A stretch of 33,397 nt of DNA, from contig VFZH01000027.1 of NCBI GenBank assembly GCA_016871255.1, positions 1 through 33,397 on the forward strand. The letters are read 5' to 3'. A program made the position numbers and the translations under genes. The notes beneath the pieces were generated by a model, which worked only from the letters and a program-made list of their open reading frames with translations, was not told where the DNA came from and searched no databases. The stretch's first letter is position 1, and every line of letters begins with the position of its first letter. This document shows positions 4,691 to 22,097 of the stretch, in pieces. The DNA comes from Acidimicrobiia bacterium. GTDB lineage: Bacteria; Acidobacteriota; Vicinamibacteria; Vicinamibacterales; UBA2999.

Positions 4691-5286
4691 CACGGTTGCC
4701 CCCCCGCTCCAGCAGCCTCACGCCGCTGCAGCTCCCGCAGGTAGAGAATCGACCGCCAGCGATCCGAAGGAACGATCTGGGCTGCGTAGGCCGGCATCTC
4801 GAAGCCGCCCAGCGTGATGATCTGGAACAGCAGCGTGTCGCTCATGTCCACCGCCCCTCCCAGAGTCAGGCTGGGCGGCTCGGGATAGCCGCGCGTCGTC
4901 ACGGGCCCGTCCCCCGCCCCGGTGGCCCCGTGGCAGGGCAGGCACCAGGCCTCGTACACGACCTGTCCCCGCTCCATGGCCGCCGCATCACCGGCCTGGA
5001 ACGGGTTGTCCCGCTCTTCGCCGATCGCGGGAACGTAGTCCGACTCCCCCCGGCCGCTACGCCATTCGAAGGTGTCGATCCGTAGCGTGCCGGGAACCGG
5101 CGGCTGCAGCGTGGCGCCGTTCTCGAACACCGGGTTGGCGGAGAAGCTGTTGAACCGCAGCCCCCGCGCCATGTCCGGGAAGAACTCGATGTTCCGCTGC
5201 TGGGTGGTCGACGGCCCGACCATCCGCAGCGCCAGGAACAGGACAATCCCGGCCAGCAGCGCGAGGTTCAGCACGACCCGTCGCAT
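4690..5286 (-). CDS. actE: Alternative Complex III subunit ActE (membrane-anchored monohaem cytochrome c)
   Basis: A 198-residue c-type cytochrome facing the periplasm. An N-terminal anchor (residues 5-22, VLNLALLAGIVLFLALRM) has no lipobox cysteine. The class I haem c domain has CLPCH at 115-119 and a likely axial methionine, M164, in GGFEMPAYA. In ACIII this subunit carries electrons out of the iron-sulfur/multihaem module. The chosen ATG overlaps the actCD stop by one base (TGATG), so translation is probably coupled; an open frame continues upstream but lies inside actCD. The sequence SDRWRSILYLRELQRRE near the end is typical of this subunit. Confidence 0.93.
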   Translation of the reverse strand: MRRVVLNLALLAGIVLFLALRMVGPSTTQQRNIEFFPDMARGLRFNSFSANPVFENGATLQPPVPGTLRIDTFEWRSGRGESDYVPAIGEERDNPFQAGDAAAMERGQVVYEAWCLPCHGATGAGDGPVTTRGYPEPPSLTLGGAVDMSDTLLFQIITLGGFEMPAYAAQIVPSDRWRSILYLRELQRREAAGAGGQP

Positions 5287-7112
5287 CAGGCGTTCTCCTG
5301 CACGACCAGGACGAACCGGTCGTCGGTCACGCCCAACCCCCCGGTCTTCGACCCTTTGAACGGCCGGAGACCCGCCACGATCAGGAACCCGACGAACGCG
5401 GCAAACACGGCCCACAGCACCGTGGCCTCGAAGATCGGCGGCACGAAGGCGGGCAGCGAGTTCATGGGCTTCCCGCCGATGTTGAGCGGCCAGTCGATCG
5501 CCGAGACCCAGAAGATGAAGCCGGTCATGAACGCCGCGCCGAAAACGCCGCCGGCGAGGCAGAACCGGGGCAGCCGGCTGCGGCCGAGCCCCATCTCCTC
5601 GCTGAGTCCATGGACGGGACAGGGCGTATACGCATCGAGGATCGGCACCCCGCGCTGCCGGGCCTCACGCGCGCCCGCCAACAAGGCCGCCTCGCTCCGG
5701 TACACGAGGTACCGCTGCCCGGCTGGCGCGGGCGCCTCCACGGGCGCGGCATCGGCTCCCGCGTCGTGCGGCAGGAGCAGCTTGACTTCGGCAATCGAGA
5801 TCACCGGCAGCAGCCGCACGAACAGCAGGAACCCGGTGAAGAAGAGCCCGAAGCTTCCGATGAAGATCGCGAACTCGATGAGCGTCGGCGTGTAACTCGC
5901 CCACGACGACTCCAGGAAGCTCCGTTCGAGCGACGTCACGATGATGACGAAGCGCTCGAACCACATGCCCACGTTGATGAACAGCGAGAGCACGAACAGT
6001 ACGACGAGGTTCCGCCGGATCGCCCGGAACCACAGCAGCTGCGGCACCACGACGTTGCCGGTGATCATCGTCCAGAAGCCCCAGCCGAGCGGGCCGAAGG
6101 CCCGGTTGGCCAGGGACAACTGCTCGTACGGGTTCGCCGAGTACAGCGCGATGAAGGTTTCAATCCCGTACGCCACGCTGATGATCCCGCCCGTCACGAT
6201 GATCAGGTAGCAGATCGCGTCGAGGTGCCGCGTGGTGATGTAGTGCTCGAAGCGCATCGTCTTGCGGGCGACGATGAGCAGCGTGAGCACCATCGCCAGC
6301 CCGGACAGGATGGCGCCGTCCACGAAGTAGGGCGGGAAGATCGTGGAGTGCCATCCAGGCAGGATGCTGACGCCGAAGTCCCAGCTGACGACGGTGTGGA
6401 CCGACAGCACGAGCGGCGTGGCCAGGCCGGCCAGCAGCAGGTACAGCGACTCGTAGTTGTGCCAGACGCGGTGCGACCCGTCCCACCCGAGGGCGAAGAG
6501 CCGGTACACCGCCCGCGCCCGGGGGTTCTCCGTCCGATCCCGCAGGGTTGCGAGGTCCGGAATCAGGCCCACGTACCAGAAGATCAGCGACACGGTGAAG
6601 TACGTGGAGATGGCGAAGAAGTCCCACACCAGCGGCGAGGCGAAGTTGATCCAGAGCGACCCCCGCGTGTTGGGGTACGGCAGCATCCAGAGCGCCAGCC
6701 ACGGGCGGCCGAGGTGGATCAGGGGGAAGATGCCCGCGCACGCCACAGCGAAGAGCGTCATCGCCTCCGCCGACCGGTTCACGGCGTTCCGCCAGCGCTG
6801 GCGGAACAGGAGCAGGATCGCGGAGATCAGGGTGCCGGCGTGGCCGATTCCGACCCAGAACACGAAGTTCGTGATGTCGAAGCCCCAGCCAACGGTCGTG
6901 TTCAGTCCCCAGGTGCCGATGCCGGTCGCGAAGAGGTAGGCCACCGCGGCCACCCCGGTGCCGAGCGCCGTCACGGCCAGCAGGAGCCCGATGGTCCACA
7001 GGCGTGTGGGCGTGCCCGCCGTCGCGTCCGCGACCTCGCGTGTGACCTGCCCGGCGGTGACGTGCCCGTCCACCAGGGGCGGAGCCATCGTGCCGGTCGC
7101 GGTAGCGTCCAC
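5286..7112 (-). CDS. actC: Alternative Complex III ActC-ActD fusion (NrfD domain plus DUF3341 domain)
   Basis: One 608-residue polypeptide holding two ACIII subunits. Residues 1-450 are ActC, an NrfD/PsrC-like quinol-side membrane protein with about ten helices; recognisable parts are WVGIGHAGTLISAILLLFRQ, HLGRPWLALWMLPYPNTRG and the MWFERFVIIVTSLERSFL segment. A short Ala/Pro-rich linker (about 451-465) leads into ActD, residues 466-608: YRSEAALLAGAREARQRGVP, DAYTPCPVHGL, two membrane helices, and IGGKPMNSLPAFVPPIFE. No stop or frameshift separates them. The GTG start follows the actB stop codon directly and has GGAGGAG upstream, in the last codons of actB; an ATG eight codons later is possible. 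In the better-known ACIII operons actC and actD are separate genes. Confidence 0.93.
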   Translation of the reverse strand: MDATATGTMAPPLVDGHVTAGQVTREVADATAGTPTRLWTIGLLLAVTALGTGVAAVAYLFATGIGTWGLNTTVGWGFDITNFVFWVGIGHAGTLISAILLLFRQRWRNAVNRSAEAMTLFAVACAGIFPLIHLGRPWLALWMLPYPNTRGSLWINFASPLVWDFFAISTYFTVSLIFWYVGLIPDLATLRDRTENPRARAVYRLFALGWDGSHRVWHNYESLYLLLAGLATPLVLSVHTVVSWDFGVSILPGWHSTIFPPYFVDGAILSGLAMVLTLLIVARKTMRFEHYITTRHLDAICYLIIVTGGIISVAYGIETFIALYSANPYEQLSLANRAFGPLGWGFWTMITGNVVVPQLLWFRAIRRNLVVLFVLSLFINVGMWFERFVIIVTSLERSFLESSWASYTPTLIEFAIFIGSFGLFFTGFLLFVRLLPVISIAEVKLLLPHDAGADAAPVEAPAPAGQRYLVYRSEAALLAGAREARQRGVPILDAYTPCPVHGLSEEMGLGRSRLPRFCLAGGVFGAAFMTGFIFWVSAIDWPLNIGGKPMNSLPAFVPPIFEATVLWAVFAAFVGFLIVAGLRPFKGSKTGGLGVTDDRFVLVVQENA

Positions 7113-10100
7113 TTACAGCTCCTCCCGGTTCCGCACGGACGTCAGGTAACCCACCGCCGGCCTCACGTTGAGCGTTTCGAGCACGTGATACCGGCGCGGG
7201 TCTGCCATGGCCACAGAGACCGCGCTGTCCGGATCGTTGAGGTCGCCGAACCGGATGGCGCGCGACGGACACGACTGCTGGCAGGCCGTCTGCACCAGCC
7301 CGTCGGCCAGCGGCACGCCCTGCCGCTTCGCTTCGAGTTCGGTCTCCTGAATCCGGTGCATGCAGAACGAGCACTTCTCCATCACGCCGCGCGAGCGCAC
7401 CGTGACGTCGGGGTTCAGCGCCAGGTTCTCGATCGGCTGCTCCCGCGCGTACTCGAACCAGTTGAACCGCCGCACCTTGTACGGACAGTTGTTCTCGCAG
7501 AACCGGGTGCCGACGCACCGGTTGTAGACCTGCACGTTGAGCCCGTCACTGCTGTGGACCGTGGCCACCACCGGACACACGGTCTCACACGGGGCGTTCC
7601 CGCAGTGCTGGCACAACATCGGCTGCACCGCCATCTCCACGGCGTCGTCGGAGCCCGTGTAGTAGCGGTCGAGCCGCAGCCAGTGCATCTCGCGGCTCCG
7701 AGAGACCTCGTCACGCCCCACGACAGGCGTGTTGTTCTCCACCTGGCACGCGATCACGCAGGCCGAGCAGCCGGTACACGAGGCCAGGTCGATCACCATC
7801 CCCCACCGGTGGCCCGTGTGGGCGTGGTCGTCCGGCCAGAGCCCCGGCTCCGCGTGCCCGGTCCCGTGCCCACCGTGGTCCGCGTCCCCGCGGTCGCCCC
7901 CGGCGTCGAGGGCGGCCAGTGTCGTCTCGTGAATGAGCGGCGGCAGATCCTCCATGGCCTGGCGCACCGAGCCCGTCTCTTCGAGCCGGAAGTGATCCTG
8001 CGTGGAGGCCAGTTTCTGCCGCGTGCCCGTTGGCGCCACCCGCACGACGCGGGAGGTGCTGCCCGACCCGGCGGGCCGGAACGGCGCCGCGTTCACGCCG
8101 ACGAGGTCGCTCGCCCGGCGCTCGACGCGGGATCCGATCCAGCGCGGTCCGAGATCCGCGAACCTGGCGCTCAGCACGCTGCCGTAGCCGAGCGCGACCG
8201 CCACGATGCTGTCGTCCTGGCCGGGCTGCACGAACACGGGCAACTCGATCGCCTCGACTCCATCCGCCTCGATGCGGACCATGTCACCCGTGGCGACGTT
8301 CAGGCTGCGTGCGGCCGCCAGGGACAGGGACGCGTAGTTGTCCCACACGACCTTGCTCACCGGGTCTGGCAGCTCGTGGAGCCAGGCGTTGTAGGCGTGC
8401 GAGCCGTCCAGCATCGCGACCTTCGGATACAACACGAGCGAGAAGTGCCCGGCCGGTGGCGCCTCCACGGCCGGCGCACGAACGGCCGCGCTGTCGAAGG
8501 GGGACGGCGGGACGATCTCGTGCGAGACGGCCACCACGCCGTCCCGGAGCGCCGCGGTCCACAAGCCCAGGAATTCGTCGTGGTCCGACTGTCGGGGGAA
8601 GACGGCGGTTTCCCAGTACGCACGCACCAGATCCTGGGCCGCGGCACCCTCACCCGCCCAGACGCTGAACGTCTCGATGGCCGGCCGCGTGTCGCCGAGC
8701 GGATGAATCGCCGGTTGCTGGATGCTCAGGATCCCCGCGACCGGCTCGGCATCCCCCCAGGCCTCGAGCGGATGGGCATCGGGGCACACGAAGCGCGTGG
8801 CGGCTGCGGTCTCGTTCAGTCTGGGAGCGAGGCTGATCGTCAGCGGGACGCGAGACAGTGCCCGGGCCAGCTCCGCTCCGCGATGGTGCTGGTGCACAGG
8901 GTTCACCCCGGCCACGATCAGGGCGGCGACGTGGCCCTGTGCCACCTCCTCCAGCAGCCGATCGACCGCACCGTCGTCCCCCTGCACCTGCCGCGACGGC
9001 GCTGCGAGATCCAGGACGCCGTCGTAGGCGCCCAGCAGGTGGTTCGCGTAGTTGACCACCGTCTGCGCGTGTTCGTCGTTCGTGCCACAGAGCACGACGC
9101 TCCGCCCACGCGCCCCCCAGAGCCGGTCCGCCAGATCGGCGGCCGCCGCCTCGATGCCGGCATCCATGTCGGGTGGCGGCAGCACGGTTTCCCCGCCGGC
9201 CAGCTCGCCCAGGCGCGACGCCACGGCGTGCAGCAGCGTGGTCACCGCGTGGGGCGCCAGCCGGATGCGCCGGTCGGCGCGAGCTCCGGTGAGGGACAAC
9301 CGCGACTCGACCTGCACGTGATGGGAGAACCGCCGCGGCGCGGCATCGAGCGTCCGGCCGTCCCGGTAGCCGGCGGCGAACTGCACGGGCGACTGCCACG
9401 TCCCCAGGAAGTCCGCGTCGAAGGCGGCAATCACGTCCGCCCGTTCGAGGCGCAGGCGCGGCTGCGCCCGCACGCCATGCGTCCGCAGGTGAGCCTCCAA
9501 CGTCGCGGAGCCCGGAAGCGGGTCCCACTGCAGGTGGACGGCATCGGAGAACGTGGCCACGAACCGCCTGACCACGTCCAGCAGGCTCGGGCTGACGAGC
9601 GTCCCGGTCAGCACCCGCACCGCGCCGCCGTCGGCGCGAATGGCAGCCATCTCCGCGAGAATGGCCTGGTCCACGGCTGCCCACGTGGACGTGTCCCCGT
9701 CCATGCGGGGCGCCGTCAGGCGCTGGGCGTCGTAGAGCCCGAGCGTCGCCGCCTGTCCCACGGCGCACAACCCGCCGCGCGAAAGCGGATGCCCGGGGTT
9801 GCCTTCGAGCTTGAGGGGGCGCCCGTCACGCGTCTGGACGAGCACGCCGCATCCGGCGCTGCACCCCCCGCAGACCGACGTCTGGTAATACGAGCGCCCG
9901 GGTACGAGATCGTCGGGCTGCTCGACAAACGGCATCGCCCGCTGCTCGGGGGCCCGCGAGCAGCTGCTCACGGCCGCACCGGCAATCGTGAAGCCGGCCG
10001 CTTTCAGGAAGTCCCGCCGGTTTGCGAACCGTTCGGGCGTGTGCAGCGGGTGCGCAGGCTCCGCCGCCGGACCGTCGAGGGCTTCCGGGCTCCGCCAGTA

Positions 10101-10121
10101 CGTTCGCCGATCGTGCTCCAC
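7113..10121 (-). CDS. actB: Alternative Complex III subunit ActB (molybdopterin-oxidoreductase-like plus 4Fe-4S domains)
   Basis: A 1002-residue catalytic-arm subunit with both halves in one chain. A Tat-type signal lies near the N-terminus (NRRDFLKAAGFTIAGAAVSS, residues 34-53, followed by C54). Residues about 80-700 form the B1 domain, which resembles molybdopterin oxidoreductases. Residues about 770-990 form the ferredoxin-like B2 domain, with cysteines C782/785/788/792, C837/840/845/849, C869/875/879, C917/920 and C947/951, enough for the usual three 4Fe-4S clusters and one 3Fe-4S cluster. Unusually, B1 keeps C84-x2-C87-x3-C91-x27-C119. A His/Asp-rich linker (742-771) separates the halves. 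It starts with GTG behind a GAGGA-like site, 12 bp after actA. Confidence 0.94.
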   Translation of the reverse strand: MEHDRRTYWRSPEALDGPAAEPAHPLHTPERFANRRDFLKAAGFTIAGAAVSSCSRAPEQRAMPFVEQPDDLVPGRSYYQTSVCGGCSAGCGVLVQTRDGRPLKLEGNPGHPLSRGGLCAVGQAATLGLYDAQRLTAPRMDGDTSTWAAVDQAILAEMAAIRADGGAVRVLTGTLVSPSLLDVVRRFVATFSDAVHLQWDPLPGSATLEAHLRTHGVRAQPRLRLERADVIAAFDADFLGTWQSPVQFAAGYRDGRTLDAAPRRFSHHVQVESRLSLTGARADRRIRLAPHAVTTLLHAVASRLGELAGGETVLPPPDMDAGIEAAAADLADRLWGARGRSVVLCGTNDEHAQTVVNYANHLLGAYDGVLDLAAPSRQVQGDDGAVDRLLEEVAQGHVAALIVAGVNPVHQHHRGAELARALSRVPLTISLAPRLNETAAATRFVCPDAHPLEAWGDAEPVAGILSIQQPAIHPLGDTRPAIETFSVWAGEGAAAQDLVRAYWETAVFPRQSDHDEFLGLWTAALRDGVVAVSHEIVPPSPFDSAAVRAPAVEAPPAGHFSLVLYPKVAMLDGSHAYNAWLHELPDPVSKVVWDNYASLSLAAARSLNVATGDMVRIEADGVEAIELPVFVQPGQDDSIVAVALGYGSVLSARFADLGPRWIGSRVERRASDLVGVNAAPFRPAGSGSTSRVVRVAPTGTRQKLASTQDHFRLEETGSVRQAMEDLPPLIHETTLAALDAGGDRGDADHGGHGTGHAEPGLWPDDHAHTGHRWGMVIDLASCTGCSACVIACQVENNTPVVGRDEVSRSREMHWLRLDRYYTGSDDAVEMAVQPMLCQHCGNAPCETVCPVVATVHSSDGLNVQVYNRCVGTRFCENNCPYKVRRFNWFEYAREQPIENLALNPDVTVRSRGVMEKCSFCMHRIQETELEAKRQGVPLADGLVQTACQQSCPSRAIRFGDLNDPDSAVSVAMADPRRYHVLETLNVRPAVGYLTSVRNREEL

Positions 10122-12530: not shown

Positions 12531-12950
12531 TCAGCCGATGAACAGCGAGTCTTCGTCGTCCGCCTGGGAGGGTCGCGACCGGCGCCGGGTGGATCCGCTC
12601 CGCAGGGCCGCGAGGGCCGCTCGCAGCCCGGCCAGCAGGGCGCCACCCTCGCGAAGGGGGGCGAGCACACGCGACTGCACGTACTCCGCGGCTTCTTCGA
12701 CGCGCGCGCTCAGGCTGGTGATCAAGTGGTCGAGCCGATCGACCTGCGCCGACGCCAGCGTCGCCGCGCGCGCGGCTTCGGACACCACTCCCTGGAGACC
12801 ATCGATCAACGGCTGGAGCTTCTGCTCGACATCGCCGGTCAGCTTCTCGATCCGCCGGACGAGGCGTGCCGTGTAGACGAGCACGGCCACCTGCATCACC
12901 GCCATCACGGCCACCGACACGGCGATCACACCAAGGAACACGGTGTCCAT
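12531..12950 (-). CDS. DUF948-like membrane-anchored coiled-coil protein
   Basis: A 139-residue protein. An N-terminal transmembrane helix (residues about 4-27, VFLGVIAVSVAVMAVMQVAV) is followed by a long amphipathic helix with heptad-like spacing (RLVRRIEKLTGDVEQKLQPL through VDRLDHLITSLSARVEEAAE) and a basic/acidic tail ending in DDEDSLFIG. This organisation matches DUF948-type general stress and envelope proteins. The ATG overlaps the mlaD stop (TGATG), so it is the last gene of the Mla-type operon and may act with it at the inner membrane. Assignment to DUF948 is by architecture, not by a specific motif. Confidence 0.65.
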   Translation of the reverse strand: MDTVFLGVIAVSVAVMAVMQVAVLVYTARLVRRIEKLTGDVEQKLQPLIDGLQGVVSEAARAATLASAQVDRLDHLITSLSARVEEAAEYVQSRVLAPLREGGALLAGLRAALAALRSGSTRRRSRPSQADDEDSLFIG

Positions 12951-13990
12951 CAGAACAGGCTGACCCTCACGTTGAGATACTTCCTCGGATCCTTCCGGAT
13001 GTCGCCGACCAGATCCCGCAATTCGGTCACGGCCCCGTTCATGTTCTCATACAGCTGCCGGTCCCGCAGCAGTTGCCCGGCCGTGCCCTCGCCCTGCTGC
13101 AGGGTCTCCAGCAGCGAGTCCAGGCGGCCCGACATCGAGTTGAGCCGCTCGAAGAGCGTGTCGTCGGTCAGCAGCCGTCCCGCCGTGCCTTCCCCCCGGG
13201 CCAGGCGTCCCGTGAGCGTGTCGAGGTTCCCGGTCGTGGAGCTGAGCGAGCGCCCGAGGGTGTCGCTGTTGAGGAGCTGGCCGAGCCCCCCTTCGCCGGC
13301 CCTGAGCTTGGCCGTCACCGCCTCGAGGTTCTTCAGCGACGATTCCAGTGCCGTGGCGGCGTCCGGGTTCCGGATGAGCCGGCCCAGCGTGCCCTGACCA
13401 TCGGTGATCTGCCGCGCCACCTGCTCCGCCGCAGTTACGAACTGGTTGAGCTCGACGTAGAGCTGCTCGTCGGTGAAGAGGCGGCCGATCGTGCCCTGCC
13501 CGCCGCTGATGCTGTCCACGAGATCAGTCATCGACTCCAGGCTTTCGCTGGCCTGCGCGGCAACCCCCGAGAACGAGCCGCTGCCGGGGGTCGTCCGCAC
13601 GTAGCCCCACTCGGGGACCGGCTGCCCTGCCCCCCGTGGGGTGATGTCCACGGCCGCCTCGCCGAGCAGCGACACCGACCCGAGCGTCGCCACGGACTGG
13701 TCCGTGATCCGGGACTGCATCTCCTCGGACACCTCCATGACGACTTCCACGCGATCCCCGCTGAAGCGCACCTCGGTGACGGCGCCCATCTCCACGCCGG
13801 CGATCCGGACCGGGGCTCCGGGCTTCAGACCCGAGATGTCGCTGAACACCGCCTTCAGCGAGTAGCGCTGCCAGAAGAACCCGCCCGTGTTGCCGAGGAT
13901 GAAGATCAGCAGCGCCGACATGACGATCGCGAAGACCGCCGCGATGCCGATCTTCAGCTCGGTCCAGGCCAGTGAACGCGTACGTGGCAT
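12950..13990 (-). CDS. mlaD: MlaD-type MCE-domain lipid transport protein with five 34-residue repeats
   Basis: Inner-membrane-anchored substrate-binding component of an Mla-type phospholipid transporter; 346 residues. A transmembrane helix (12-33) precedes one MCE domain (about 43-118) with FSDISGLKPGAPVRIAGVEM and SLLGEAAVDITP. The C-terminal half contains GxGTxGRLL-type motifs at residues 164, 198, 232, 266 and 300, an exact 34-residue period, the fourth and fifth being GEGTAGRLL and GEGTAGQLL. Such repeats occur in many non-proteobacterial MCE proteins and probably form a long helical tube or tail. Its Shine-Dalgarno GAGGT overlaps the mlaF stop 11 bp upstream. Confidence 0.92.
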   Translation of the reverse strand: MPRTRSLAWTELKIGIAAVFAIVMSALLIFILGNTGGFFWQRYSLKAVFSDISGLKPGAPVRIAGVEMGAVTEVRFSGDRVEVVMEVSEEMQSRITDQSVATLGSVSLLGEAAVDITPRGAGQPVPEWGYVRTTPGSGSFSGVAAQASESLESMTDLVDSISGGQGTIGRLFTDEQLYVELNQFVTAAEQVARQITDGQGTLGRLIRNPDAATALESSLKNLEAVTAKLRAGEGGLGQLLNSDTLGRSLSSTTGNLDTLTGRLARGEGTAGRLLTDDTLFERLNSMSGRLDSLLETLQQGEGTAGQLLRDRQLYENMNGAVTELRDLVGDIRKDPRKYLNVRVSLF

Positions 13991-14001
13991 CGTGCGGGAC
14001 C

Positions 14002-14844
14002 TCAGGAGAGAAACGTCCGGACGTAGGTATCCGTGCTCTCGCGCAACGCGTGCGCGTTGCCCTCGAAGTGCACCCGTCCGTCCTTCAACATGATGAACTC
14101 GGCTTCGTCCGCCTTCGCCGTCGAGGCGGGCTCGAAGACCACGGATCCGTTCCGCCGCACCGCCTCCTGCGTGGCCACGTAGAACGCGTCCCTGAGCTGG
14201 TGCGTCACGAGGATCGACGTCACGTTCTCCAGATCGCGAAGCTTGATGATCTCGTCGTCGACCGTGGTCGCCGTCATGGGATCCAGGCCGGTCGTCGGCT
14301 CGTCGTACAGGAGCACCCGCGGCTTGGCCGCCATCGCCCGAGCAATCGCCACGCGCCGCCGCTGCCCGCCCGAGAGCTCCGACGGCATCCGATCGATGAA
14401 GGCGCCGAGCCCGACGAAGCCGAGCACCTCTTCGATCCTCGGACGGGCTTCCTCGATCGGCAGCCGGGCCTCCTCGATCAGCTTGTACCCCACATTCTCA
14501 CCCACCGTCAGGGAATCGAACAGCGCCCCCTCCTGGAACACCATGCCGAGGTCGCCGCGCACCCGCATCAGCTCGCCCTCCGCCAGATGGTGGACGGGTG
14601 CGCCCAGCACCCGGACCTCTCCGCCGTCCGGCTTCAGCAGTCCGAGGATGATCTTCAGGATCGTGGACTTGCCGGCTCCGCTCGCCCCGAGGAACACCTT
14701 CGTGTGCCCCTCTTCCAGCGTGAAGCTGACGCCGTCCAGGACCACCTTCTCGTCGAAGGCGAGCGACACCTCCTCGAAGGCGACCACCACGGTCGCTCCG
14801 GCCGGCGTCTGGCGGGGCGGCGGCGCGGCGGCGGCACCCGGCAT
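14002..14844 (-). CDS. mlaF: Mla-type ABC transporter ATPase
   Basis: Cytosolic ATPase that powers the MlaE permease; 280 residues. Walker A is GASGAGKST (53-61), the signature motif LSGGQ (157-161) and Walker B VLLYDEP (177-183), followed by TTGLDPMTATTVDDEI and the H-loop ILVTHQL. The LSGGQRRRVAIARAMA and DEPTTGLDP pattern with a QEGALFDSLTVGENV segment is characteristic of MlaF/Mkl proteins. A Pro/Ala-rich N-terminus of about 18 residues is non-conserved. The ATG overlaps the mlaE stop as TGATG; the frame stays open far upstream but only as a shadow of mlaE. Confidence 0.94.
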   Translation of the reverse strand: MPGAAAAPPPRQTPAGATVVVAFEEVSLAFDEKVVLDGVSFTLEEGHTKVFLGASGAGKSTILKIILGLLKPDGGEVRVLGAPVHHLAEGELMRVRGDLGMVFQEGALFDSLTVGENVGYKLIEEARLPIEEARPRIEEVLGFVGLGAFIDRMPSELSGGQRRRVAIARAMAAKPRVLLYDEPTTGLDPMTATTVDDEIIKLRDLENVTSILVTHQLRDAFYVATQEAVRRNGSVVFEPASTAKADEAEFIMLKDGRVHFEGNAHALRESTDTYVRTFLS

Positions 14845-15608
14845 CAGTAGATCAGCGTGAACAGCAGCCGCGTGATGAAGAAGTCCACGGCGATCACCAT
14901 GACCGACGCAATCACGACGGCGTTGGTCGTCGCCCGGCCGACCCCCTGTGTGCCGCCGGTCGTTCGCAGGCCGACGTGGCAGCCCGTGGTCACGATGACG
15001 AAGCCGAGCACGAACGGTTTGATGAGCCCCATCCAGGCATCCTGCACGTAGAGCCCCTCGGTAATCGACGTCCAGTACAGGCTCGAGGCGACGCGCAACT
15101 GGACCGTGGCGATCAGCCAGCCGCCGATGATCCCGACCGTGTCGGCGATGACCGTCAGGACCGGCGCCATCAGCGTCCCGGCCAGCACGCGCGGGACCAC
15201 GAGCTTGCGGATCGGATCGGTGCCCAGGGCGCGGAGCGCGTTCACCTGGTCGGTCACGACCATCGAGCCGATTTCGGCCGCGATGCCGGACCCGACGCGG
15301 CCGGCCAGCATCAGCCCGGTCAGCACGGGTCCGAGCTCCTTGACCATCGAGGCGCTGACGAGCCGCCCCACGAACGGCCGCGCGCCGAACTGATCGAGCG
15401 TCATCCCGGTCTGCAGCGCGAGGACGGCACCGGTGAAAAAGCCAGTCAGCACCACGACGGTCATCGATCCCAGGCCGATGGCGTCGAACTGCTGGACGAT
15501 GTCGCGGAAGTACCAGGGCCCGGATCCGATGCCACGCACGGCGGCCACGCACAGCCGCACGTACTCCTGGACCTCCTGCAGAATCTCCTTGGCCCGGCGC
15601 GTGATCAT
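14844..15608 (-). CDS. mlaE: Mla-type ABC transporter permease
   Basis: A 254-residue inner-membrane permease of the MlaE/YrbE family, which moves phospholipids between inner membrane and the MCE protein. Family marks are GFFTGAVLALQTGMTLDQFGA, SASMVKELGPVLTGLMLAGRVGS with the EIGSMVVTDQVNALRALGTDP coupling-helix segment, and GVGRATTNAVVIASVMVIAVDFF at the C-terminal helices (each read in part). It starts with ATG nine bases after the uvrB stop on the same strand. It lies at the head of mlaE-mlaF-mlaD-DUF948; mlaB and mlaC homologues are not in the window, which is common outside Proteobacteria. Confidence 0.94.
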   Translation of the reverse strand: MITRRAKEILQEVQEYVRLCVAAVRGIGSGPWYFRDIVQQFDAIGLGSMTVVVLTGFFTGAVLALQTGMTLDQFGARPFVGRLVSASMVKELGPVLTGLMLAGRVGSGIAAEIGSMVVTDQVNALRALGTDPIRKLVVPRVLAGTLMAPVLTVIADTVGIIGGWLIATVQLRVASSLYWTSITEGLYVQDAWMGLIKPFVLGFVIVTTGCHVGLRTTGGTQGVGRATTNAVVIASVMVIAVDFFITRLLFTLIY

Positions 15609-15617
15609 GGACGATGG

Positions 15618-17612
<1,995 letters not shown>

Positions 17613-17687
17613 GTGAGGGAGACGAGCGGGCGCGGGGCGCACGACCTGGCATCGTACCACACGGTCGAGGCAGCTTCGGCCGGCCCC

Positions 17688-18627: not shown

Positions 18628-18677
18628 CGGGCGAGAATGTACGACGCGCCGGCTGTACCGTGCACCTCGATCGCCAC

Positions 18678-20108
18678 ATGAGGTGCCTCGCCGTCTGTCA
18701 GAGTGAACTGGTCATCCGGATGCTCGACGAGATCCTGATGCCCGGTTTCGACGTCGAGTTCGTCGTCGAGAGCCGCGCTCTCGCCCGCAGGCTTCACGAC
18801 TCGGGTACCACCGTCCGGTGCGCCGATCCGAAGCGCACCGACGCCTACCTCAAGGCCGACCTCACGCCCGGCACGGCCGTCATCATCGAAGACAGCTCCC
18901 GCCGGAGCATCCGCCGGATCGTGTCCGCCGTGCGGGACGCCGGCGGCACGCTGATCTACGTCCTGGGGATGGGGGTGACCGCCGCGCGCGAACGCGAAGA
19001 CGCCCTCAAGGGAGAGTTTCCCGAGCTCAACTACCTGACGATGACGGAGCTGTTCGGCACTACGCTCCAGACCGAACTGGCCCGCTCGCTGACCCGCCTC
19101 AAGGTGCAGCAGTACCAGCGCTACTTCGCCGACGCCGACCGGGTGCTGATCCTGCTCCACAACGACCCCGATCCGGATGCCCTGGCCAGCGGCCTGGCGC
19201 TCCGCACGGTCCTGCGGCGCACGCGCCAGACGGCGATCATCGGGGCCGTGAAAGGCGTGACCCGTCCGGAGAACCTGCGCATGCAGGCGCTGCTCGACAT
19301 CCATGTCGAGCCGATCGATGCCGCCGCACTCGCCTCCTTCGAGCGCGTGGCGATGGTGGATGTGCAGCCCCACTACTTCGAAGGGCTGACCGATCGCGCC
19401 GATCTCGTGATCGACCACCATCCGGAACAGACCGGGTATCTCGCGGTCTTCCACGACATCCGTGCGAACTACGGGTCCACATCGACGATCCTGACCGAAC
19501 ACCTGCGTGCCGTGGACGCGAACATCTCCGAACGCACGGCCACCGCGCTCCTCTACGCCATCAAGTCCGACACCGCGTTCTTCAACCGCGGCGCGAACCG
19601 CGCCGATGTGGACGCCTTCTCGTATCTCTATCCGCTGGCGCACCCGACCCTGATCCGCAAGATGGAGGGCGCCGACATCACGATGGAGCGCCTCGACTAC
19701 GTCGTGAAGGCGAAGCAGAACGGCCACCTGTCCGAGGAGGTGTACTGCGCCTATCTCGGGCGGGCGCCGCGCGAGGACTTCGTGCCCTACGTCGCCGACT
19801 TCTACCTGCAGATGGAGAGCGTCCGGTGGACGGTCGTGGCCGCCGTCGTCGCGGACGCCATGGTGATCTGCGTCCGCAACCTCGGGTTCTCACGTCACGC
19901 CGGCGACTTCGTGCGGAAGTACTTCGGCGAGATCGGCAACGCGGGCGGGCACCGCTCGATGGCCAAGGCCGTCGTGCCGCTGGCCGCGTTCCGGCAGAAG
20001 TTCGGCAGCCTCCAGGCCGACGAGATCACCGATCGCCTGCACGACCTGATGCACCACTACTTGCACCAGCAGCAGCCCGACCGCGACCGGCGCCTGACCC
20101 GAGCCTGA
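18678..20108 (+). CDS. DHH-family phosphoesterase with extra N-terminal Rossmann-like domain
   Basis: A 476-residue cytosolic metallo-phosphoesterase of the DHH/DHHA1 superfamily (NrnA/RecJ relatives, which degrade short oligonucleotides, pAp or cyclic dinucleotides). Manganese-binding motifs are intact: HNDPDPDALASG (161-172), D228 in AMVDVQP, IDHHPE (245-250) and the SDT motif at D299. The C-terminal DHHA1 substrate motif is GNAGGHRSMAKAVVP (420-434). Residues 1-145 are an extra domain, with CLAVCQSELVIRMLDEIL and AVIIEDSSRRSIRRIVSAVR, reminiscent of TrkA-N/RCK nucleotide-binding folds. The start could also be the GTG at 18660; neither has a strong Shine-Dalgarno. The exact substrate cannot be told from sequence. 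Confidence 0.87.
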   Translation: MRCLAVCQSELVIRMLDEILMPGFDVEFVVESRALARRLHDSGTTVRCADPKRTDAYLKADLTPGTAVIIEDSSRRSIRRIVSAVRDAGGTLIYVLGMGVTAAREREDALKGEFPELNYLTMTELFGTTLQTELARSLTRLKVQQYQRYFADADRVLILLHNDPDPDALASGLALRTVLRRTRQTAIIGAVKGVTRPENLRMQALLDIHVEPIDAAALASFERVAMVDVQPHYFEGLTDRADLVIDHHPEQTGYLAVFHDIRANYGSTSTILTEHLRAVDANISERTATALLYAIKSDTAFFNRGANRADVDAFSYLYPLAHPTLIRKMEGADITMERLDYVVKAKQNGHLSEEVYCAYLGRAPREDFVPYVADFYLQMESVRWTVVAAVVADAMVICVRNLGFSRHAGDFVRKYFGEIGNAGGHRSMAKAVVPLAAFRQKFGSLQADEITDRLHDLMHHYLHQQQPDRDRRLTRA

Positions 20109-20125
20109 CCCTCCGCCGCATCCGT

Positions 20126-21601
20126 TCAGCCGAGCGGGCCGGTGCGATCGAGGATGTCTTCCTCTTCTTCCCCGTCCCCCTGTCCGGGAAACGCGTCCGC
20201 CTGCGCCCCCAGGTGCTCCCCGCTCCCCCCGATCACCGGGGTGATGAACTGCCGATAGGCGTCCTCGTAGCCCAGGTCCAGGAGCTCGGCCAGCGGGTAG
20301 TGGCGATCGGAGGCGCGGTCGTACGCGCCACCCAGGTCGAAAGGCCCGACGGGGTTGTGCACCGGCGCCACCTGATAGATCCCTCTGAACAGGGCGCCAT
20401 GGGCGGTGATGGCGTCGCGCAGCGCCGCCGTTTCGTCGGCGGTCACCATGTCGCCCAGACGGGCCCACGGGCTCAGGCCCACGGCGGCAAGTCCGTGCGG
20501 GGCCGGGCGGCCCACGGCCGCACCCACGACAACCACCTGCTGGACACCGGCGGCGTGCAGCTCCTCGAACACACGGAGCACGGCCGCCGGCCTGTCGCAG
20601 TACCGGCGTGTTTCGCCGCGCCAGTACGAGGCGGGAGCGAAGCGGATCCGGTGGGACTCGCTGCCGAACGGTGGGGCCAGCGCCCCGAACAGCATCTCCA
20701 GCGCGAGCGCGCTCTGCCCGGACGCCGCCAGGTCGATCGCCTCCGATCGCCGTTCGCCCTCCGCCCGCGCGTCGAAGAAGCGCGTGCGATAGGGCTCCTT
20801 CAGCACGGCCCCCGTCACGTCCTGGCGCGCATCGAGGTCGGTTGCGACGAGCAGCAGTTCGCGCACCCCCGGCTGCCCCAGGTTCTCCACCAGCGTGTCC
20901 ACGAACCGCCGCCCGACAGAGGCCACGTCGGGACGCCTGACGGGCTGGGCCCCGCGCACCAGCTGCCAGAGCGCGTCGGCGAAGAGGCGCGGCAGAACGG
21001 TTGCGTCGATCGGCGCGCCGAACACGGACCACCACCACCCGCCCGCGGCCCGGCGCTTCGGCGTCGTCCGCCAGGCCGTGGCCGCCGTCCCCGCCAGCAG
21101 GATCCCCACCAGGCCGACCAGCACGGCCAGCCCGACCCGGGGCAGCACGGTCGGCAGGTTCGGTGAGGACAGCGCGCTCTGGACCCAGGCGGAGTACCCG
21201 TTCACGAGCACGGGACCGGCCGGGAGCGCCATCACCTCGAGCAGGAACCCGATCGGGTATACGACCAGCCCGAGCGTCAGGAGCAGGAGCGGCACGACGA
21301 GCACGGCCACGAGCGCGAGGGCGGCCCACGCCGCGTAGCGGAGCGTCGGCTGCCACGTGTAGGCCGACCGCACGTCCGGCCTCCGCCAGACGCCGTGTGT
21401 GTCCCAGAGGGACGCGGCCCCATCGATGGCCGTCAGCATGGCGGCGCCGGCCCCCACGCCGCGGCCGGCGACGACGTCCAGGCGAACGCCTGCTTCTTCC
21501 AGTGCGCGCAGCACGCCGGCATGGTAGGCCCCGTGCGCGCCGGTTCCGAGGAGCACCAGCGCGGTCCGGCGATCGGGAGAGTAGTCCGGGGCGGGGGTCA
21601 C
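20126..21601 (-). CDS. Patatin-like membrane protein lacking the catalytic serine
   Basis: A 491-residue protein whose patatin core is split by a membrane insertion. ALVLLGTGAHGAYHAGVLRA (14-33) matches the patatin oxyanion region. LDVVAGRGVGAGAA (41-54) is the nucleophile elbow, but the family GxSxG reads G46-R-G48-V-G50, so serine is replaced by glycine. Residues about 88-125 and 155-175 are hydrophobic, probably membrane-spanning. The core resumes with ELLLVATDLDARQ, ASGQSALALEMLFGALAPPF, and YCDRPAA where DGG is expected (D336 present, both glycines absent). A lipase role is therefore doubtful; a structural or regulatory pseudoenzyme is more likely. The tail is acidic (DGEEEEDILD). GTG start, 25 bp after greA; ends 17 bp from the convergent DHH gene. 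Confidence 0.78.
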   Translation of the reverse strand: MTPAPDYSPDRRTALVLLGTGAHGAYHAGVLRALEEAGVRLDVVAGRGVGAGAAMLTAIDGAASLWDTHGVWRRPDVRSAYTWQPTLRYAAWAALALVAVLVVPLLLLTLGLVVYPIGFLLEVMALPAGPVLVNGYSAWVQSALSSPNLPTVLPRVGLAVLVGLVGILLAGTAATAWRTTPKRRAAGGWWWSVFGAPIDATVLPRLFADALWQLVRGAQPVRRPDVASVGRRFVDTLVENLGQPGVRELLLVATDLDARQDVTGAVLKEPYRTRFFDARAEGERRSEAIDLAASGQSALALEMLFGALAPPFGSESHRIRFAPASYWRGETRRYCDRPAAVLRVFEELHAAGVQQVVVVGAAVGRPAPHGLAAVGLSPWARLGDMVTADETAALRDAITAHGALFRGIYQVAPVHNPVGPFDLGGAYDRASDRHYPLAELLDLGYEDAYRQFITPVIGGSGEHLGAQADAFPGQGDGEEEEDILDRTGPLG

Positions 21602-21626: not shown

Positions 21627-22097
21627 TCACGCCCCGTCGTCGTGGATGGTGACCAGCTTCACCAGCTCGAACTGGCGGAGTCCGCTCGGCGTGGACACGC
21701 GGATGTCGTCGCCCTCCTCCTTGTTGAGCAGGGCCCTGCCGATCGGCGACGAACTCGAGATCAGCCCCTTCTCCACGTCGGCATCTTCGGGCATCACGAG
21801 CTGGTACACGACCAGCGCGCCCTCCTCGTCACGGAGGTGGACCGTGGATCCGAACCCGGCGCGATCCTTCGGGATGCGATCGACGTTCATCAGGGAGATC
21901 TCGCTGACCCGCCGCTTCAGCATCGCGATCCGCGCGTTGACGATCTCCTGGCGTTCCTTCGCGGCCTTGTACTCGGCGTTCTCGCGCAGGTCACCCAGCT
22001 CCCTCGCCCGCTGGATCTCCCTGGGCAGCTCGATCTTCAGCTCGCGCTCGAGCGTCGCAATCTCCTGCGCGAACCGTTTCAGGATCCGTTCCTTCAT
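21627..22097 (-). CDS. greA: Transcription elongation factor GreA
   Basis: Secondary-channel factor that stimulates RNA polymerase to cleave backtracked transcripts. Its 156 residues match the usual 155-160. The N-terminal coiled coil carries the tip motif GDLRENAEYKAAKERQ (35-50) with the catalytic acidic residues D36 and E39. The C-terminal globular domain shows DEEGALVVYQLVMPEDADVE, ISSSSPIGRALLNKEEGD and RQFELVKLVTI. No Shine-Dalgarno is seen; a TAAGAT box at 22124-22119 would give a leader of about 15 bases. It is divergent from the RNA methyltransferase gene, with a 12-bp palindrome between them. Confidence 0.95.
   Translation of the reverse strand: MKERILKRFAQEIATLERELKIELPREIQRARELGDLRENAEYKAAKERQEIVNARIAMLKRRVSEISLMNVDRIPKDRAGFGSTVHLRDEEGALVVYQLVMPEDADVEKGLISSSSPIGRALLNKEEGDDIRVSTPSGLRQFELVKLVTIHDDGA

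Follow-up and report, generated by a model that had tools for sequence, protein, structure and literature searches.

The window, that is, the whole stretch of 33,397 nucleotides analysed here, encodes on its reverse strand (20126 to 21601) a protein of 491 amino acids that has a complete patatin fold, but neither the Ser/Asp dyad nor an intact oxyanion loop. Its identification as a patatin-fold protein devoid of the nucleophile serine relies on the open reading frame, the Pfam match, a structural model and fold comparison. At what we consider even probability, this protein and its relatives are a class-wide, non-catalytic lipid- or acyl-binding pseudoenzyme, usually found at the cytoplasmic side of the inner membrane and made together with GreA.

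The reading frame begins with GTG and runs without interruption. The Pfam Patatin profile (PF01734) matches only residues 15-86 of the product, with 37.5 bits against a cut-off of 27.7, and it is matched by all 47 members of alignment A1 (E values up to 0.01). Three motifs of the active site, read on the reverse strand, depart from those of active patatins. The nucleophile elbow G46-R-G48-V-G50 (21452 to 21466), which reads DVVAGRGVGAGAA in the window protein, carries a glycine encoded by GGC (21458 to 21460) at position 48, where active patatins have serine, as the original prediction had claimed. The oxyanion loop is G19-T-G-A-H-G24 (21530 to 21547), in place of the GGGxRG of active patatins; it had been described as well kept, which holds for Gly 19, 21 and 24, but not for the second Gly and the Arg/Lys of the motif, both of which are replaced. 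Finally, the stretch G329-E-T-R-R-Y-C-D336-R-P338 (20588 to 20617) corresponds to a family motif, GExHR plus DRP, that is located by sequence, model and alignment at the canonical site of the DGG hairpin. DRP occupies residues 336-338 instead of DGG, so that the predicted reduction of this motif to D336-R-P was correct.

The assignment of D336 as the likely dyad Asp is a judgement. It is preferred because in the model this residue lies between strand 331-335 and helix 340-350, and because its distance to the next strand, counted by hand, fits that of a paralogue. Another placement was rejected: the profile comparison by hhalign with six unique active paralogues, the oxyanion loop of which is GGGARG, aligned DGG with the RGE stretch, a few residues before D336.

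The same changes are found throughout the family. Within the order, Gly48 is present in all 109 rows that bear a letter at that column (111 rows aligned), and in a narrower alignment in 53 of 53 rows from the 55 matched genomes. The sister families add 20 of 20 rows with a letter (21 rows), namely 14/14 in f16, 2/2 in f17 and 4/4 in f19. Hence glycine stands in 129 of 129 sequences at the place of the GXSXG nucleophile serine of active patatin-like phospholipases, and the flanking glycines of the elbow are present together with it. In the oxyanion loop, Thr or Ser takes the place of the second glycine of GGGxRG in 100 of 109 order members, and none of the 129 sequences of the order and its sisters has the Arg/Lys; the order has A (68), D (23), H (17) or S (1 of the 109) at this position. 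Gly 19, 21 and 24 are mostly retained, and the full GGGxRG signature of active patatins is missing. As regards the third motif, 110/110 order members have R337 where the dyad Gly would stand, while D336 is Asp in 102 of 110, as well as in 11/12 f16 members; f17 has Glu instead (2/2), and f19 has Ser or Gly (4/4). The DG[GA] context of the catalytic Asp is therefore not found, as the Asp, mostly retained, is followed by R337. Since the same residues recur in an order and in its sister families, the motif changes are, judging from the alignments, no chance effect; and since none of the members examined has the serine, it was probably lost before the compared families diverged.

A displaced nucleophile was also considered. 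Serine at position 47 was rejected, being found in 0/109 order members (R 77, H 14, Q 10, T 3, D 2, A 1, V 1) and in 0/4 of f19. It does occur in 12 of 14 f16 rows and in 2/2 f17 rows; the elbows of these two families (for instance L150 and L156) are mostly GSGxG, with the Ser one place ahead of the nucleophile position, a form seen neither in the order nor in f19. In the family alignment, just two Ser/Thr/Cys columns, T13 and S431, reach a conservation of 90% or more. The latter is Ser in 110/110 order members and T, S, N or G in the sisters, which leaves T13, located where strand 1 begins, as the sole hydroxyl column retained family-wide. The homologues thus answer whether the Ser-to-Gly change is fixed: it is, in 109/109 order and 20/20 sister rows, and no conserved shifted serine accompanies it. 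The polar residues kept throughout the family are Y26, D42, D255, D290, E330, H332, R333, Q355 and D447. Conservation is highest in the motif regions (12-66, 240-262, 321-347 and 405-460), with mean identities of 0.72-0.79, compared with 0.41-0.48 for the inserted hairpin described below.

Missing catalytic residues might be taken as the mark of a decaying pseudogene or of a sequencing artefact. The probability of this explanation is negligible, and it is refuted by the open frame, the presence of the protein in 55 of 59 close relatives and in 168 of 193 genomes of the class, and a dN/dS of 0.17. In detail, the median dN/dS is 0.166 (range 0.066-0.297; 104 pairs with a value, of 108), obtained by simple counting on whole open frames and hence including some upstream codons. 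Because dN/dS is low, the gene is seen to be maintained under purifying selection, in a fixed state and not as a decaying copy. Relatives were also collected by an alignment-based, motif-led contig scan, in which 80 of 142 were retained. In a phylum draw of 297 genomes, the 32 with the protein all come from one class of Acidobacteriota, the only one in which the family was seen in that draw, and which we infer to be Vicinamibacteria, with Vicinamibacterales as the order. Inside the class, it is missing from 10/10 genomes of family f18. Copies on plasmids were looked for and none was found, and the top-ranked named matches in a viral library carry an ordinary patatin-like annotation. Two loci (L205 and L206, genomes G089 and G020) show weak partial Patatin matches, under the curated cut-off.

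The AlphaFold2 model of the window protein (pLDDT 88.6, pTM 0.86) shows the patatin fold between residues 8 and 460, and gives Z scores of 21.9-23.4 against CapE, PlpD and patatin. A separate model of one of the four orthologues that lack the membrane helices (see below) retains the complete fold (pTM 0.89), and its comparison with these structures yields Z scores of 21.8-23.6. The patatin fold is therefore predicted with and without the hairpin, at Z scores of about 22-23.6. Among solved structures, the best sequence match is PlpD (5fqu, 5fya; E 3.8e-6, residues 12-58), which aligns structurally over 247 residues (5fya_B, Z 22.9, rmsd 3.2). Its elbow reads AGTSMGA, against AGRGVGA in the window protein, with Ser in the place of Gly, and it appears to have no such membrane hairpin, as 247 of its 255 residues are aligned. 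The top structural matches are CapE (9ioq, Z 23.4, rmsd 3.5, 276 aligned) and AbCapV (9jeh, Z 22.6, rmsd 3.9, 277 aligned). CapV and CapE are patatin effectors of CBASS and, unlike them, the present family has no elbow Ser. Membership of CBASS is not supported, given that 0 PADLOC families match the window protein. No CBASS cyclase model matched among five neighbours in the window and the PLP enzyme of one relative, the proteins scanned; models of TRIP13 and other AAA proteins gave weak matches to the RarA-like neighbour.

According to the model, the insert is placed after the elbow helix and forms one two-helix hairpin. By model and hydropathy, it consists of a long helix at 85-123 (21233 to 21349, reverse strand, as for the following), the first membrane helix, and a second one at 148-178 (21068 to 21160). 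Between them the model and the charge counts place a helix with few charges at 128-143 (21173 to 21220), presumably on the outer side. The hydrophobic stretches originally noted at 88-125 and 155-175 are thus real and their limits close. In 43 members, the mean number of K+R is 4.8 ahead of the hairpin, 1.0 in its loop and 5.1 behind it; with the hairpin bordered by basic residues at either end, the two halves of the fold are predicted to be cytoplasmic. A reading with three membrane helices, which would place the halves on opposite sides, was suggested by 19-residue hydropathy windows, three of which are found in 31 of 47 members. It was rejected because in the model the first two windows make up one 39-residue helix, and because the flanking charges fit two crossings.

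Hydrophobic insert windows also occur in rows of f16, f17 and f19, for which reason the hairpin is taken as ancestral. Four members of the order (L047, L049, L051 and L052) have only 28-39 residues at the insert, without a hydrophobic window, and well-supported branches of the tree require no fewer than three changes to account for these helix-free members. As the sisters have the hairpin, these changes are read as losses, at least three times. What selection keeps is the soluble, serine-less core, the anchor being optional. The original prediction of a maintained membrane pseudoenzyme agrees with the sequence as regards maintenance and loss of the catalytic residues (fixed Gly48, low dN/dS, no conserved shifted serine). 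The word membrane applies to the window protein and most of its relatives, but to a part that is not essential, its helices having been lost at least three times.

The nearest precedent is the plant pPLAIII group, compared here by description only. In PMC4623698, this group is defined by a GXGXG esterase box, in place of GXSXG, as in the GRGVG of the window protein, and is reported at second hand to hydrolyse acyl groups although it has no S-D dyad (S to G, D to G). Hydrolysis of PC by pPLAIII beta and delta is stated in PMC4204433, and PMC4623698 and PMC4253999 describe the Asp of DGG as changed in several plant members. Because plant pPLAIII is reported to keep acyl-hydrolase activity, sequence alone is no proof of inactivity. 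The bacterial family could then be an acyl hydrolase or transferase that manages without the elbow serine, as claimed for pPLAIII, either by activating water or with the help of some other conserved residue; PMC4623698 and PMC4204433 report acyl-hydrolysing activity in pPLAIII in spite of the changes S to G and D to G/S/T. The conserved polar set D42, D290, E330, H332, R333, Q355 and D447 would be consistent with this, and so would the retention of D336 in 102/110 order members, which speaks against a purely binding role, as such a role does not obviously need an Asp. We nevertheless hold this possibility to be unlikely, given that the oxyanion loop is altered too, R337 replaces the dyad Gly, D336 has given way to Glu in f17 (2/2) and to Ser or Gly in f19 (4/4), and the family alignment offers no conserved alternative nucleophile. 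A more specific form, in which the family would be the bacterial counterpart of pPLAIII, performing acyl chemistry on inner-membrane lipids via D42, D290, E330, H332, R333 and Q355 by an unknown route, appears more doubtful still. PMC4623698 states that pPLAIII retain the anion element DGGGx(xx)G; the bacterial family has GTGxxG, being GTGAHG in the window and mostly GTG or GSG elsewhere. Furthermore, unlike pPLAIII, the bacterial family mostly keeps the Asp, loses both Gly and carries a membrane hairpin insert. As its oxyanion loop is altered as well, ordinary hydrolysis seems less likely here than in pPLAIII.

In the preferred interpretation as a binding pseudoenzyme, the retained core (Gly48 together with D42, D290, E330, H332, R333 and Q355, a polar set that presumably lies at the pocket) would take up an acyl chain or a lipid head group from the inner leaflet. 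The serine-less core would not cut the bound lipid; the protein would work through binding, whether as a carrier, as a partner subunit or as a regulator that responds to lipids. The hairpin in the membrane would do no more than tether the core to its ligand and would be dispensable. The loss of the catalytic residues is also compatible with a structural scaffold or partner-binding protein, for which the patatin fold would be just a surface and the pocket irrelevant. The conserved C-terminal region 405-460, with YDxxSDR, lends some weight to such a role, as its conservation within the order is close to that of the pocket motifs; but the old active-site loop and elbow are among the most conserved segments (12-66, 0.79), beyond what a surface would need, and we find this explanation rather improbable.

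The gene lies next to greA, as first noted: greA (21627 to 22097, reverse strand; open reading frame list and profile match) is directly upstream on the same strand, with a gap of 25 bases. This arrangement was found in 80/80 named loci and in 52/52 whole-genome loci with room, two sets that share genomes. The nearest start, chosen mechanically, falls between -30 and +60 from the greA stop in 96 of 105 loci, with an overlap of 4 or 1 bases (-4 or -1) in 31. From these data it could be proposed that greA and the patatin gene form a translation-coupled unit, tying the state of the membrane to transcription elongation. We regard such a GreA-linked regulator as very unlikely, since the whole surrounding block is syntenic, a UvrC-like gene intervenes in f16, and greA was not found within 14-16 kb around three f19 loci (L207, L208 and L213). 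Because rarA, spoU, DHH and uvrB are also retained in the same block around the patatin gene, the link to greA is weak evidence of a shared function and may reflect conserved gene order only.

The downstream neighbour in the window is a convergent DHH-family phosphoesterase-like gene (18660 to 20108, forward strand), recognized by Pfam and from the loci of relatives; the first 150 residues of its product show no clear Pfam match (a weak one to DUF4350), and this neighbour is conserved across the order. Among the 73 loci with room, the next gene downstream is a PLP enzyme in 44, the convergent DHH gene in 23 and neither in 6. The PLP enzyme is of the methionine gamma-lyase / cystathionine gamma-synthase kind (e.g. 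L060:6623-7798 and L057:6322-7575). The window is of the DHH type, and the PLP enzyme is missing at 20108-20126. In f16 greA is followed by the UvrC-like gene, the patatin gene and then, in several loci, the PLP enzyme; the UvrC-like gene is a fragment with a partial NCBIfam match (L150:610-1488 and other f16 loci). Farther along the reverse strand of the window (12950 to 17660) are found uvrB and then a lipid-asymmetry transport set, at a distance of about 4.5 kb from the patatin gene, made up of MlaE, the ATPase of an ABC transporter and a gene with an MlaD domain; in relatives too uvrB follows the patatin gene, as does mlaE where the locus is long enough. The region 5286 to 10121 (reverse strand) holds genes of a respiratory complex, presumably of the NrfD / alternative complex III kind. 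Of the proteins encoded there, one of 1002 aa matches models of the molybdopterin-like (QrcB) and Fe-S (QrcC) kinds, and another of 608 aa gives a weak DsrP match.

In searches of the open-licence literature, no printed account of a bacterial serine-less patatin family was found, nor any paper dealing with Vicinamibacter together with patatin. The matches for bacterial GXGXG patatins all concerned plants, judged by title, and pPLAIII with GSGVG gave nothing. For patatin-like pseudoenzymes, the matches (PMC9464883, PMC11314389) did not seem relevant. A GXGXG patatin-fold protein is known from plants, and the class-wide bacterial family with a dispensable hairpin represents a new form of it.

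The cutting residue is Gly in every relative examined and the gene is kept beside greA, throughout a group of bacteria from soil and water, which suggests a role other than ordinary fat cutting. Genome annotations that label such genes patatin-like phospholipase may be mistaken across an entire bacterial class. In plants, the activity reported for serine-less patatins fits poorly with their sequence, and the bacterial family offers many natural replicates of this state, among which the hairpin-free members may be easier to purify. Should acyl chemistry without the serine be true, the family would provide a compact bacterial system in which to ask how a patatin works without Ser and Asp.
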